From contig NZ_SZZH01000001.1 of assembly GCF_005298075.1 (NCBI RefSeq), forward strand, positions 744,001-808,000: DNA of 64,000 nucleotides, in the 5' to 3' direction. The translations under genes and the position numbers were made by a program. Source of the DNA: Nakamurella flava. Its GTDB lineage: Bacteria > Actinomycetota > Actinomycetes > Mycobacteriales > Nakamurellaceae. This document shows positions 56,830-61,666 of this stretch, in pieces. The stretch's first letter is position 1; each line of letters opens with the position of its first letter. Under the pieces are notes generated by a model that worked only from the letters and a program-made list of their open reading frames with translations, made no database searches and was not told where the DNA came from.

Positions 56830-57366
56830 TCAGCGGTTGTTCTCGTGCTGGATGGCGTCGATCCCGACGGCGGTGGCGATGGCCAGCACGGGATCGAGTC
56901 CGTCGACCTGGACGGCGAAGGCGTCGGTGATCGAGATCCAGCGCCGGGTGGTCGTCCCGACGGTGGCGCCGGCCCGCTCGAAGCTGAACTCGTGGTTAAG
57001 CATGTCGCCGTGGATCTCGACGTCGTCGCCGCCGTCGCCTTCGATCGCCCAGGTCTCGTGGACCGGGGCGAAGCCGGTCTTACGGATGGTCACGTCGGCC
57101 CGGCCCGGTCGCGACAGGGTGAACGTCGGGTGCACGTGCATCGGCGGGCGGGCGAGGTCGGCGACCTCGGCCCCGTCCGGGGTGAACATGCTCCACTTCT
57201 GGCCGACCAGCGTGAAGTGGCCCTTGAACCGGTAGGCCTCCTGGCCGGCGGCGTCGTCGACCCGGTAGCCCTCGATCGTGCCCAGGCGACGGTGCACGAC
57301 GAAGGTGCCGGGCGGCAGCGCGGTGGGGGTCGACTCGGCCGACGACGAGGAATGCGAGTGGAACAC
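56830..57366 (-). CDS. LURP-one/tubby-like family protein
   Basis: The protein has 178 residues and is mostly beta strands: RRLGTIEGYRVDDAAGQEAYRFKGHFTLVGQKWSMFTPDGAEVADLAR, ADVTIRKTGFAPVHETWAIEG, then EIHGDMLNHEFSFERAGATVGTTTRRWISITDAFAVQVDGLDPVLAIATAVGIDAI. The pattern matches the LURP-one-related (DUF567, tubby/scramblase-like) family. The role in bacteria is unknown. It diverges from the J-domain operon. Confidence 0.82.
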   Translation of the reverse strand: MFHSHSSSSAESTPTALPPGTFVVHRRLGTIEGYRVDDAAGQEAYRFKGHFTLVGQKWSMFTPDGAEVADLARPPMHVHPTFTLSRPGRADVTIRKTGFAPVHETWAIEGDGGDDVEIHGDMLNHEFSFERAGATVGTTTRRWISITDAFAVQVDGLDPVLAIATAVGIDAIQHENNR

Positions 57367-57497: not shown

Positions 57498-57531
57498 TTG
57501 CGATGCACAGTTTGAGTCACTTAGACTCAAA
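57498..57531 (+). promoter_or_regulatory. Leaderless promoter overlapped by a HAIR-type HspR operator
   Basis: The promoter is TTGCGA (57498-57503), 18 bp, TAGACT (57522-57527); +1 falls at the ATG (57534). TTGAGT-N7-ACTCAA (57512-57530) covers the -10 box. It equals the HspR-associated inverted repeat CTTGAGT-N7-ACTCAAG except for its outermost base pair (T/A instead of C/G). Confidence 0.8.
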
Positions 57532-57533
57532 TC

Positions 57534-58592
57534 ATGCTCACGACGACCGAGGCGATCGACCGGATCACCGAAGCCCGTACCGCGGCCGATCTCTTCGGTG
57601 ACACCGCGACGTCCAACGATCCGGTGCGCGCCGCCCGCCGGCGGTTCCACGGTCTGCTGCAACTGGTCCACCCGGACCGCGCTCCGGGGGATCTCCGGGC
57701 GGCCGACGCGGCCATGCGGCTGACCGCGCTCTACGACGCCTGGACCGCTCCGGCGGCCGGGGCGCCGAGCGGAGTGGTGCTCCAGACCCGTTCGGCCGAC
57801 TACGAACTCGGTGACCTGATCGGGCGAGGGAGCATCGCCAACCTGTACCGGGCCCGCGTCCTGGATGGGACGGTCGGCAGCGGGCGTGCGGTGGTCGTCA
57901 AGCTGCCGCGAGACCCGCGCGCCAACGGGCTCATCGAGGCCGACTTCGAGACCCTGAGCGCCCTCGGGCGTCTGACGTCGGTGGCGGACTCCGCCTGGCT
58001 GGCCGGGTACTACCCGTCCCTGGTCGATCGCGGCGTCCACCTCGGTGCGGACGGCGTAGAGCGCTCGTTCACCGTGCAGGAACCGCTGGGTGGTCCCGGA
58101 TGGGCGACCCTCGCCCAGATCCACGCCGCCCATCCCGACGGCATCGACGGCGACGACTACGCCTGGATGCACCGGCGCCTGCTGTGGGCTCTGGCCGGGC
58201 TGCATCGCACCGGGCGAGTGCACGGCGCCGTCCACCCCGACAACGTGCTGGTCTGCTCCGACCCGCGCACCGTCGTCCTGCTGGGCCACTCGTTCTCGGT
58301 GCGGGCCGGGCAAGTGCTGAACGCCACCGTCGATGGTGCCGCCTACCCGCCGGAGGCGCTGGCCGGGCGTCCGGTCAGCGGCGAGAGCGACGTGTTCCAG
58401 GCCCACCGCCTGATGCTGACGATGCTCGGCGACCGGGCCACCCCGGCCGAGATCTGCTTCGCCCAGGGGTGTCTGCAGGACGCCGCGGCGCTACGCCCGA
58501 CCGCGGCCGACTTGATCACGGAATTTGACGATTTCATCGACCACACCTACGGGCCGCGGCGGTTCCGACCCTTCCCGCTGCCCAATAGCTGA
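57534..58592 (+). CDS. J-domain fused to a protein pseudokinase
   Basis: The protein has 352 residues. Residues 18-70 (ADLFGDTATSNDPVRAARRRFHGLLQLVHPDRAPGDLRAADAAMRLTALYDAW) form a J-domain with the HPD triad H46-P47-D48. Residues 88-340 are kinase-like: glycine loop IGRGSIANLYRA and ATP-site Lys in VVVK (K123). The catalytic HRD is HGA (H230-A232), and the DFG Asp is missing (LLGHSF). N237 remains. It is therefore a pseudokinase, not an active kinase. The HPD J-domain should stimulate DnaK. The transcript is leaderless from the HAIR-controlled promoter. It heads the operon with the vWA and PurA-like genes. Confidence 0.85.
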   Translation: MLTTTEAIDRITEARTAADLFGDTATSNDPVRAARRRFHGLLQLVHPDRAPGDLRAADAAMRLTALYDAWTAPAAGAPSGVVLQTRSADYELGDLIGRGSIANLYRARVLDGTVGSGRAVVVKLPRDPRANGLIEADFETLSALGRLTSVADSAWLAGYYPSLVDRGVHLGADGVERSFTVQEPLGGPGWATLAQIHAAHPDGIDGDDYAWMHRRLLWALAGLHRTGRVHGAVHPDNVLVCSDPRTVVLLGHSFSVRAGQVLNATVDGAAYPPEALAGRPVSGESDVFQAHRLMLTMLGDRATPAEICFAQGCLQDAAALRPTAADLITEFDDFIDHTYGPRRFRPFPLPNS

Positions 58593-58633: not shown

Positions 58634-59707
58634 ATGGGAAACGGCACCTGGTCCGACCACACCTACAACGCCGCCCGCACGTTCCGGGCCGCCACCGGCG
58701 CCGCCGACTTCGGCTACACCGCGGCGACCCGGTCGCAGCACCCGGACACCTGGAAGGCGCACCCCACGCTCGACCCGCTGAACGTGAGTGCCCGCGAAAG
58801 CCGCGACTCCGACGAGCACCCGGACGCGCTGCCGGTCGCCGTGCTGTTCGACGTCACCGGCTCGATGGGGCAGGTGCCGCGCATCCTGCAGACCAAGCTG
58901 GGCAAGCTGCACGGCCTGATCCAGCGCAAGGGCTACGCCCGTGACCCGCAGATCCTGTTCGGCGGGATCGGCGATGCCGACACCGATCGGGTGCCGCTGC
59001 AGGTCGGGCAATTCGAGAGCGACAACCGGATGGACGAGCAGCTCCGCACCATCTTCCTGGAAGGTGGTGGTGGCGGGCAGAAGTCGGAGTCCTACGAGCT
59101 GGCCGCGTACTTCATGGCTCGGCACATCAGGACGGACGCCTGGGAGAAGCGGCAGCGCAAGGGCTACCTGTTCATCATCGGCGACGAGTTCAACAAGCCG
59201 CGGCTGGCCGCCCGACACATCCGCCGGGTTATCGGCGACGACGTCCGCCTGGACGTCTCGGTCGAGTCGGTCTACCGCGAGCTGAGCCGGCAGTGGAACG
59301 TGTTCTTCATCCTGCCCCGGCAGAGTGCCTACTTCGACGACCCGGCAATCATCGATCACTGGCGGAAACTGTTGGGGCAGAACGCGATGAAGCTCGACGA
59401 CCCGGCCGCCGTGTGCGAGTTGATCGCCCTGACCATCGGTCTCGGTGAGGATCGGGTCGACGTCGCCGACGGACTGGCCGATCTCGCCGACGTCGGATCC
59501 GGCGCGGAGGCGCAGTCGGTCCGTCGCGCGCTGGAGGGCGCGGCTGACGGTCGGAACCGGCGGACGTCGGCCGATGACGACGACGCGCTCCGCGCCCGCA
59601 ACGGCGGGTGGGGGCGGCTGCGCCGGCTCGCGCACGGCACGGTCGCCATCCGGGGTGCCGGGACACCGGCCGGGTTGGACGACGCCGGCGGGGTGACGTT
59701 CCGATGA
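58634..59707 (+). CDS. von Willebrand A-like protein, metal-site DxTxS
   Basis: The protein has 357 residues. The MIDAS-type motif is VLFDVTGSMGQ (D73-V-T75-G-S77) and later strands are QILFGGIGDAD and KGYLFIIGDEFNKPR. ESYELAAYFMARH adds a conserved-looking helix. The N-terminal 60 residues (TYNAARTFRAATGAADFGYT) and the C-terminal low-complexity tail are not assigned. vWA proteins usually bring partner proteins together. The ATG at 58634 follows GAAAGGGAG; the earlier GTG at 58625 is less likely. The stop overlaps the PurA-like start (ATGA). Confidence 0.82.
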   Translation: MGNGTWSDHTYNAARTFRAATGAADFGYTAATRSQHPDTWKAHPTLDPLNVSARESRDSDEHPDALPVAVLFDVTGSMGQVPRILQTKLGKLHGLIQRKGYARDPQILFGGIGDADTDRVPLQVGQFESDNRMDEQLRTIFLEGGGGGQKSESYELAAYFMARHIRTDAWEKRQRKGYLFIIGDEFNKPRLAARHIRRVIGDDVRLDVSVESVYRELSRQWNVFFILPRQSAYFDDPAIIDHWRKLLGQNAMKLDDPAAVCELIALTIGLGEDRVDVADGLADLADVGSGAEAQSVRRALEGAADGRNRRTSADDDDALRARNGGWGRLRRLAHGTVAIRGAGTPAGLDDAGGVTFR

Positions 59708-61029
59708 CCGCCGCCCTGCCGTGGGCGGACGGCCGCCATGTCGTGGTGGTGGATCTCGGGTTCGGCGACGCCGGCAAGGGCGCCACCGTCGACTGGCTGT
59801 GCTCGCCGCGGTCGGGGCTCGACGTCAGTGCGGTCGTCCGCTTCAACGGCGGCGCTCAGGCCGCCCACAACGTGGTCGTCGGCGGACGGCACCACACGTT
59901 CCGGCAGTTCGGGTCGGGCACCTTCAGCGGCGTCCGCACCCTGCTCTCCCGGTACGTGCTGGTCGACCCGTACGCGCTGGCCCAGGAATCGGATCAACTC
60001 GCCGCCCTCGGCGTCGACCGTCCGCTCGATTTGATCGAGATCCACCGTGACGCGTTGATCACCACCCCACTGCACCGCCTGGCCAACCGGGCCCGGGAGG
60101 ACGCCCGCGGTACCGCCCGGCATGGGTCCTGCGGGACGGGCGTGGGAGAGACCGTCGCCTACGCGCTCGACCACCCGGACGCGTTGCGGGTGCGGGACTG
60201 CGCGGACGGGGCGCTGGTCAACCGCAAGCTGGTGGCGCTCCTCGAGTACTACCGGCCGTTGCTGGCCGCCGACGGCGCGCTGCCGGCGGGAGCCGGGCCG
60301 GGCGCGATCGCCGACATGGTGGGGACGTACCTGGCCTTCGCGCAGGCGGTGGAGGTCGTGGGTGACGAACGGCTGGCCCAGTTGGCCGCGGCGGGCACTC
60401 TGGTGTTCGAGGGGGCGCAGGGGGTGCTGCTCGACGAGTGGCACGGCTTCCACCCGCACACCACCTGGTCGACCACCACGCCGGACAACGCCCTGACCTT
60501 GCTGGCCGAGATCGACGCGAGGGGTGTCGTTCTCGGGGTGACGCGCACCTACAGCACCCGGCACGGCCATGGCCCGTTCCCGTCGGTGGACGTCGGTCTG
60601 GACGCGCTGCTGCCGGAGCCGCACAACGGCGCCGGCCGCTACCAGGGCGAGTTCCGGGTGGGTCACCTCGATCTCCCGCTGCTGCACTACGCGGTGCAGG
60701 CCAGCCGACGGGTGGATGCGCTGGTGGTGAACCACCTGGACGCGGTCGACACCGCCGCGCTGCGGATGGTCGACGGCCACGTCGACGCGGACGGTCGCGC
60801 GATGACAGCGCCGACCGCCGCGTTCGACCACGACCTCGATCGTCAGCAGGCGCTGACCGACGCGTTCAGCGAGGCCGGTGTCGTGACCCGACCGGTGGCC
60901 GGAGGGGCCGCCGTCCTGGCGGAGATCGAGACCGGACTGGGCCGCCCGGTGGTGCTGACCGCCGACGGCCCGGACCGGAGCGACCGTTCCGTCGTGAACA
61001 CCCACGGGACGGCCCAGCGGGCGGCCTGA
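59704..61029 (+). CDS. Adenylosuccinate synthetase (PurA) paralogue with altered loops
   Basis: The protein has 441 residues. PurA motifs are VVVVDLGFGDAGKGATVDWL (D22, K25 in the base/P-loop), AVVRFNGGAQAAHNVVV (H55), HGSCGTGVGETVAY, VFEGAQGVLLDEWHG and RTYSTRHGHGPFPSVDVG, then NHLDAVDT. The Asp-binding loop of true PurA (TTGRPRR) is missing; RYQGEFRVGHLD stands there. The enzyme is thus expected to join an acceptor to a nucleotide in the PurA manner but with another substrate. It overlaps the vWA gene by 4 bp and converges with an NrtR-like gene 4 bp away. Confidence 0.85.
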   Translation: MTAALPWADGRHVVVVDLGFGDAGKGATVDWLCSPRSGLDVSAVVRFNGGAQAAHNVVVGGRHHTFRQFGSGTFSGVRTLLSRYVLVDPYALAQESDQLAALGVDRPLDLIEIHRDALITTPLHRLANRAREDARGTARHGSCGTGVGETVAYALDHPDALRVRDCADGALVNRKLVALLEYYRPLLAADGALPAGAGPGAIADMVGTYLAFAQAVEVVGDERLAQLAAAGTLVFEGAQGVLLDEWHGFHPHTTWSTTTPDNALTLLAEIDARGVVLGVTRTYSTRHGHGPFPSVDVGLDALLPEPHNGAGRYQGEFRVGHLDLPLLHYAVQASRRVDALVVNHLDAVDTAALRMVDGHVDADGRAMTAPTAAFDHDLDRQQALTDAFSEAGVVTRPVAGGAAVLAEIETGLGRPVVLTADGPDRSDRSVVNTHGTAQRAA

Positions 61030-61033
61030 GGCG

Positions 61034-61666
61034 TCAGGTCCACACCCACGGCTGATACGGCCGTCCAGGCCCACCGGACCGGACGGCCGCCTCGGCCTGC
61101 TGCAGACCGGGCATGCTCCGCAGCATCCGGTTGAGGTTGCCGCGGTCCGGGCGCGAGCCGCTCAACGCTTCGGCCAGCGCCAGCGCCCGGGCGGTACTGA
61201 ACTCCTCGCCCAGGATGGCGCGGGTGAAGGTCCGGTCCCGCCAGAGCAGACCGGCCAGCGCGGCGCGGGCGACCTCGAGGATGGGACCGTGGTCGAAGGC
61301 CAGGTGCGGTACCTGGCCGAACGCGAACCAGGACGCGGTGTCGACCGGCGCGGCCGGGTCGACCACCGCCCACATGGACAGTGAGAGGGTCGGGCCCCGG
61401 GGGTCGCGCAGGGGCTCGTCGAAGGTGGCCAGCTGCCCGACCCCCCGGATGTGCTCGGGCGGCAGGCCGACCTTGCCGGTGATCGCGCGCAGGGCGGCGT
61501 CGTACAGGCGCTCCCCGCGACCGAGGAGCACCCCGGGCAGAGCCAGCTCGCCCGCGAACGGTTCCCGGTCCCGCCGGATGATCGCCACGCTCGGTGTTGC
61601 CTCGGTCACCGCGAACCGTACGGCGACGACGTCGACCGACACCATGGACGCCTCGGGCAGGGACAC
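61034..61666 (-). CDS. NrtR-like Nudix/winged-helix protein with degenerate Nudix box
   Basis: The protein has 210 residues. The Nudix region is VAIIRRDREPFAGELALPGVLLGRGERLYDAALRAITGKVGL. The box REUxEExGU is here RAITGKVGL (60-68), so all three catalytic Glu residues are gone. The C-terminal part (FTRAILGEEFSTARALALAEALSGSRPDRGNLNRMLRSMPGL) looks like the winged helix of NrtR regulators. It should act as a ligand-sensing transcription factor, not as a hydrolase. The GTG start is leaderless, six nt after TAGAAT. An ATG at 61645 is an alternative. Confidence 0.8.
   Translation of the reverse strand: MSLPEASMVSVDVVAVRFAVTEATPSVAIIRRDREPFAGELALPGVLLGRGERLYDAALRAITGKVGLPPEHIRGVGQLATFDEPLRDPRGPTLSLSMWAVVDPAAPVDTASWFAFGQVPHLAFDHGPILEVARAALAGLLWRDRTFTRAILGEEFSTARALALAEALSGSRPDRGNLNRMLRSMPGLQQAEAAVRSGGPGRPYQPWVWT

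Follow-up and report, generated by a model that had tools for sequence, protein, structure and literature searches.

A phage-shared four-gene module with a private candidate operator contains a PurA-derived enzyme with replaced substrate-pocket residues

The purA-like gene at positions 59704-61029 of the window (the whole 64,000-nucleotide stretch of Nakamurella flava DNA that was analysed) encodes a member of a second divergent PurA-like clade. The gene belongs to a larger entity, a four-gene module that is shared with phages, has a private candidate operator and contains the PurA-derived enzyme. As judged by aligned residues, two of the three substrate pockets of the enzyme are changed in concert. 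We moderately favour the explanation that the module is a regulated accessory system making a modified purine, in which the enzyme would use GTP to phosphorylate the O6 of a 6-oxopurine and would then ligate the base to an amine other than aspartate. The product of the enzyme is probably a purine compound not yet described.

PurA is known from textbooks as a housekeeping enzyme; PurZ shows that new chemistry can reside in a divergent phage homologue. Members of the present clade are named adenylosuccinate synthetase in the records. No description of the module was found in the literature searched, a search that most subscription papers and preprints lay beyond.

Results

Organization of the module

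The features of the module in the window are as follows.

57511-57531, no strand: candidate operator, a perfect 8-bp inverted repeat, TTTGAGTC-ACTTA-GACTCAAA, 2 bp before the ATG of the kinase-like gene
57534-58592, + strand: protein with a J-domain (HPD) and a protein-kinase fold, pseudokinase-like (phrog_3043, 1.9e-17; weak kinase matches)
58634-59707, + strand: vWA-fold protein with an intact MIDAS (DxTxS ... D) (phrog_2971, 1.3e-75; model; alignment)
59704-61029, + strand: PurA-fold ligase of a separate paralogue clade (profile, tree, fold and alignment evidence)
60637-60672, + strand: codons of RYQGEFRVGHLD, residues 312-323, which replace the aspartate loop TTGRPRRxGWFD
61034-61666, - strand: NrtR-like regulator, a NUDIX domain with a degenerate box followed by a C-terminal stretch (aligned with winged-helix relatives)

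The purA-like gene is a paralogue

The purA-like ORF encodes 441 amino acids, and its ATG overlaps the stop codon of the upstream gene (ATGA). Pfam profile PF00709 matches the protein with an E-value of 1.1e-56, covering profile positions 1-333 of 416 only. The NCBIfam PurA equivalogs score 62-153 bits on the protein, under their cut-offs of 368-700 bits (153 bits versus 402 and 107.7 bits versus 395.55, for example). The first-pass annotation had read the gene as a PurA paralogue and had proposed a search for a standard purA elsewhere in the genome. A whole-genome search finds such a gene on another contig (C4:227786-229039), with 594.5 bits compared with 192.5 bits for the window copy, so the genome holds a second, canonical purA, and the window gene is rejected as the housekeeping PurA. 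In accordance, among the window's own genome and 40 relatives, the eight that carry a high-scoring PurA-like gene all have a canonical purA-level match as well. The operon context, which had been taken to count against a housekeeping role, supports the same view.

The clade was sampled with 57 sequences, the window protein and 56 others thinned at 72% identity from 132 extracted loci; outside the sample stand L114 (odd start), L148 (canonical loop, own group) and any sequence with internal stops. In a quick maximum-likelihood tree built without the loop columns and returned with long-branch warnings, the 57 members are one side of a branch with SH-aLRT 100, and the PurA and PurZ branches have values of 96 and 98, respectively. 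Chance divergence of a single gene is rejected by this 57-row clade.

The AlphaFold2 model of the PurA-like protein (pLDDT 93.6, from a 41-row alignment) presents a complete PurA fold. It superimposes on E. coli PurA (1cg3) with Z 43.5 over 397 residues and on the PurZ0 and PurZ entries with Z 26 to 33; Foldseek agrees.

Replaced residues in the amino-acid and phosphate pockets

The residue alignment contains the 57 clade members, 16 canonical PurA and 5 PurZ sequences. Residues are given in E. coli numbering, which, like the assignment to the aspartate site, is our own mapping from the contacts of H. pylori PurA.

The earlier claim that the TTGRPRR loop is replaced is confirmed: RYQGEFRVGHLD stands at the place of TTGRxRRxGWFD of canonical PurA and is shorter by one residue in the alignment. 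The motif TGRxR[RK] is found in none of the 57 clade members and in all 17 of a set made up of the 16 canonical PurA rows and the PurA-like phage row L148. The loop signature Q-x-x-x-R is found in 56 of the 57 sampled members. In particular, R303 is deleted and R305 is replaced (by Phe, Leu, Trp, Val, Met or Ile) throughout the 57, T301 is Gln in 56, and T300 is mostly aromatic. V273 is His in every member; at K331, 37 members have His and 17 have Cys. A single arginine of the loop, R318, is invariant across the 57.

In the crystal structure of PurA with IMP (8QWA; PMC11571797), residues equivalent to N38, T129, T239 and, from the other subunit, R143 hold the 5'-phosphate; the equivalent of R303 holds the 2'-OH, and those of R303 and R305 hold a sulphate (Asn37, Thr121, Thr230, Arg135*, Arg294 and Arg296 in H. 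pylori numbering). In the clade, N38 is Gln (56/57) and T129 is Cys (53/57), and an arginine occupies the R143 column in two members only (L127 and L129), at a place where the alignment is gapped. Of the contacts N38, T129, R143* and T239, the window protein keeps T239 only. Compared by alignment, which has gaps around R143 and within the loop, both the pocket for the amino acid and the larger part of the pocket for the IMP 5'-phosphate thus appear to differ from those of PurA.

The equivalents of D13, K16, H41, Q224 and T239 are invariant in the clade (57/57). The P-loop lysine, D13 and H41 correspond to K25, D22 and H55 of the window protein, in line with the first-pass statement that the P-loop and the catalytic residues are kept. 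By this alignment, the residues that would serve O6 phosphorylation of a 6-oxopurine are retained. Overall, the clade shares with PurA (PF00709; E. coli 1cg3 and 1ade) the whole-length fold, the P-loop, D13, H41, Q224 and T239; it differs in the aspartate loop, in most of the 5'-phosphate contacts and at V273 and K331, and in that its gene shares a module with the genes of the vWA, pseudokinase and NrtR-like proteins.

In the PurA mechanism, the N1 proton goes to Asp13, O6 receives a phosphate from GTP, and the amine of aspartate displaces this phosphate. Since the residues of the first step are kept and the aspartate site is missing, another amine would be ligated to a 6-oxopurine whose 5' end is not the plain IMP phosphate. 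In the proposed reaction, GTP would phosphorylate O6 via the equivalents of D13, K16, H41 and Q224, and the phosphorylated intermediate would be ligated to an amine donor other than aspartate. The 5' end of the purine substrate would be unlike that of IMP, for example that of a deoxy-, di- or triphosphate or a dinucleotide form. Against this proposal, the invariant R318 could still bind the carboxylate of aspartate, and, since T239 is kept, a phosphate may still sit there.

R318, the PurA fold and the catalytic core would also suit a second adenylosuccinate synthetase, which joins aspartate to IMP (or dIMP) by means of a rebuilt loop and provides extra or regulated AMP under stress or phage growth. 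Lytic phages can gain from purine supply, which favours such a role. However, T301, R303, R305, N38, T129, R143 and V273 are changed together across the clade, no purB is annotated in the module in the gene tables of the loci read, and each of the eight paralogue carriers among the 41 genomes already contains a canonical purA match. We therefore consider a second adenylosuccinate synthetase unlikely. The two pockets unlike PurA, together with a pseudokinase as a partner, could instead indicate a non-catalytic GTP-binding switch or scaffold of a vWA-pseudokinase complex that is merely built on the PurA fold. This role is rather improbable, because all 57 sampled members keep D13, H41 and Q224, residues whose task is catalysis rather than GTP binding alone.

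A protein outside the 57, that of Vibrio phage VB_VaC_SRILMA (L170, 7971-9083), was read by eye. It has Asn at the place of N38 and Thr at the place of T129, and its loop, FQGTMKFG, has Lys for the otherwise invariant R318.

Comparison with PurZ

According to PMC12884076, PurZ joins aspartate to dGMP (aspartate use is also given in PMC8342488), and Ser replaces Asp13 in 147 of 147 phage PurZ sequences, a fixed marker of PurZ. In S-2L PurZ, the loop that touches aspartate is kept and R303 differs (PMC8342488). In our alignment, all five PurZ rows have Ser at D13 and keep V273, N38, T129, R143 and R305. At the positions compared, the clade shares with PurZ only the loss of R303 and a Ser at position 128.

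The clade and the phage PurZ/PurZ0 enzymes (7odx, 6fm1, 7vf6) are alike in being derived from PurA, borne by phages and deprived of R303 in a shortened loop. A PurZ-type enzyme, which would convert dGMP towards a 2-aminoadenine precursor for Z-DNA, would account for the absence of R303 and for the database names that read '2-aminooxy adenylosuccinate synthetase'. In contrast to PurZ, with its Ser at D13, its VT...RR loop and its use of aspartate, the clade keeps D13 in 57 of 57 members. In addition, PurZ is a separate branch of the tree, and neither datZ nor mazZ is annotated beside the PurA-like gene in the loci read; the neighbours in the window are the kinase-like, vWA and NrtR-like genes. 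PurZ identity is therefore rejected, and we give a PurZ-type reaction very little chance.

The first-pass annotation had also traced the new chemistry of PurZ to loop changes of this type. This part does not stand, as PurZ still condenses aspartate and is marked by the change of D13 to Ser; the paralogue, loop and operon parts do. The altered 5'-phosphate pocket, the large phage-shared clade and the NrtR-type regulator with its operator were absent from that annotation.

Under phrog_1211 and in many phage records, the label '2-aminooxy adenylosuccinate synthetase' is given to canonical PurA as well as to the paralogue clade, and is thus uninformative on function. One viral contig (L148) encodes a PurA with the canonical loop TTGRARK, yet has His for both Gln224 and Lys331; in the quick tree its position is close to PurZ (SH-aLRT 90).

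Probable upstream partners

The pseudokinase-like protein lacks the HRD aspartate, which is Ala in the window protein and in 69 of 75 family rows; the VAIK lysine is present in 67 of the 75. An active Ser/Thr kinase is rejected for 57534-58592 on the loss of the HRD aspartate. Its match, phrog_3043, is annotated as kinase, and PADLOC finds kinase-type matches only.

The match of the vWA gene, phrog_2971, is a phage family annotated as unknown, and a Pfam search of the gene gives no match. The AlphaFold2 model of the vWA protein (pLDDT 86.9) matches integrin beta-I domains in the PDB with Z 16.1 over 187 residues. The MIDAS residues are conserved: Asp73 is present in 128 of 129 rows (the other has a gap) and Asp184 in all 129.

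A vWA gene is found with the PurA-like gene in 129 of 134 loci and, in 121 of the 127 loci measured, lies on the same strand at most 400 bases upstream. This adjacency is counted in loci obtained with the PurA-like query, and stand-alone vWA genes fall outside the count. The loci with no vWA match are L092, L111, L117, L144 and L148, the first three of which start less than 1 kb from a contig end. The window's own copy (L003) is counted among the 134 loci, as are near-duplicates (L010 and L102, for instance, apparently come from a single genome). Nocardia, Rhodococcus and Actinomadura supply most of the loci, since the best 80 of at least 484 relatives were retained.

The vWA protein and the pseudokinase probably act as partners of the PurA-like enzyme, and from gene order and coupling we infer a complex of the three proteins. 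The partners may contribute MIDAS-dependent binding, recruitment of Hsp70 or a scaffold. The jumbo-phage MoxR-vWA chaperone pairs (PMC7824862) likewise involve a phage-borne vWA protein; there it goes with a MoxR AAA+ ATPase, whereas in the present module a PurA-like enzyme, along with a J-domain pseudokinase, would take the place of the ATPase.

On a Rhodovulum plasmid (L169, 5101-8029), a vWA gene annotated as a TonB-dependent receptor adjoins an NrtR-like gene. It has no annotated PurA-like neighbour, and the locus is perhaps decayed or a different module.

The NrtR-like regulator and the candidate operator

The NrtR-like gene is convergent with the module, and its protein aligns along the whole length with NrtR-like relatives. 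The top PDB match by sequence is the NUDIX-type regulator AraR. The winged-helix profile PF21906 (NrtR_WHD) scores over its cut-off in module relatives of Actinomadura (L084), a jumbo phage (L122), Agrobacterium (L167) and Rhodovulum (L169), is sub-threshold in L028 (E 0.064), and gives no match for L030 or the window protein. The NUDIX box is degenerate in the window protein, as in 68 of 84 family rows. A catalytic NUDIX hydrolase is rejected for 61034-61666 on this ground.

The candidate operator, TTTGAGTC-N5-GACTCAAA, is the sole site within two mismatches in the 4.84-Mb genome. The sequence upstream of each module was scanned with GTTTTAGTC-N5-GACTAAAAC, ahead of the first gene and with up to 4 of the 18 positions free to mismatch. 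Of the 68 bacterial loci whose NrtR-like gene is degenerate, 64 contain the site, compared with 0/15 loci with an intact NUDIX box, 2/7 without a NUDIX gene and 0/39 viral loci. The background is three matches elsewhere in 1.96 Mb. Two congeners (G002 and G010) carry the site with four and three mismatches, respectively. Three of the four misses of the degenerate type (L004, L009 and L010) are loci cut close to the match; in fuller loci of these genomes, the site appears with four and two mismatches in two and with five in the third.

On the Agrobacterium plasmid, the NrtR-like gene is divergent from the kinase, vWA and PurA-like genes, indicating that the pairing recurs in another phylum. The intergenic repeats of Agrobacterium and Acetobacter are not clearly the same operator. 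In Actinomadura and Embleya (L084-L106), the NrtR-like gene lies upstream in the operon and retains an intact NUDIX box, and no GTTTTAGTC palindrome is present, which is apparently a second regulatory form.

The M. smegmatis NrtR has a degenerate box; hydrolase activity was not detected, and ADP-ribose releases the protein from DNA (PMC6800001). Like this protein and AraR (5bs6), the regulator of the module has a NUDIX domain with a degenerate box, and its C-terminal stretch is a putative counterpart of their DNA-binding region. From the same source, the mycobacterial NrtR palindrome is 23 bp, with the same length and the same GTTTT...AAAAC ends as the module palindrome GTTTTAGTC-N5-GACTAAAAC; its box, GTTTTCGA-N7-TCGAAAAC, differs from the module palindrome in the inner arms. 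The known NrtR and AraR regulators go with nad or ara genes, whereas the present one goes with the PurA-like module. By analogy with NrtR, the ligand may plausibly be related to NAD or ADP-ribose; ligands vary across the NUDIX regulator family, as AraR shows.

Distribution of the module

The PurA-like gene and the vWA gene occur in the same 8 genomes of the 41. The module is found in 4 of 17 genomes of the genus, in 2 of 396 genomes of a wider phylum sample (one being the window's own) and in none of 14 controls. Dozens of actinobacterial species carry the clade, as counted among the best 80 of at least 484 relatives. Plasmid copies occur in Rhodococcus, Tsukamurella, Variovorax, Agrobacterium vitis and Acetobacter, in two phyla.

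Among 50,697 phage records, 208 contain the vWA gene, including those of 189 Mycobacterium, 1 Mycolicibacterium, 10 Rhizobium and 6 Vibrio phages, and a search with the PurA-like protein gives the same counts for these hosts. C1 mycobacteriophages carry the PurA-like clade. In large phages, the module is mostly without the regulator. Further recurrent neighbours in phages are mostly shadow frames; the single clear extra is a 275-residue family in seven viral loci.

A recent insertion at a fixed site is rejected: the two flanking genes lie elsewhere or are absent in congeners, and no empty site is demonstrable. A gene for a LURP-one-related (PF04525) protein adjoins the module in the window (56830-57366, - strand). 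Of 17 genomes of the genus, only 2 have this gene, and in the other one it lies away from the module.

Discussion

The reading of the module as a regulated source of a modified purine brings the enzyme, its partners and its regulator together. In bacteria, the NrtR-type repressor would sense a nucleotide or sugar-nucleotide ligand and bind the palindrome at the start of the operon. The phage copies would have constitutive or timed expression, which fits the lack of the regulator in most of them. Besides R318 and T239, two further observations weigh against this reading: the Vibrio phage protein L170 departs from the rules of the clade at three places, and a vWA-bearing plasmid, L169, has no annotated PurA-like neighbour.

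More tentatively, the module may represent a new enzyme class, an NrtR-controlled, phage-shared nucleotide-ligating complex of the PurA-derived enzyme, the vWA protein and the J-domain pseudokinase that would place a new amine on the 6-position of a 6-oxopurine other than IMP (dIMP, IDP/ITP, IDP-ribose or deaminated NAD). We hold this specific form to be possible but doubtful. If it is true, the N6-modified purine could be a signal, a product of cofactor repair or a nucleic-acid precursor. Some phage-defence systems deaminate ATP to ITP, and the enzyme might, for example, reverse this deamination.

If the product of the module is a new purine compound, it would add to the chemistry based on NAD, ADP-ribose and inosine where phage and host meet. 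With a candidate operator, a regulator and two partner genes at hand, the question of the product is directly testable in laboratory strains.

In one genome (G030:C1:4223103-4234822), the PurA-like gene and the canonical purA are about 10 kb apart. In Rhizobium phage RHph_TM21B (L027, 564-7236), the PurA-like and vWA-like genes lie within a few kb of genes annotated as HAD hydrolase, phosphoribosyltransferase and NMN adenylyltransferase/NUDIX, neighbours that fit an NAD-linked setting.
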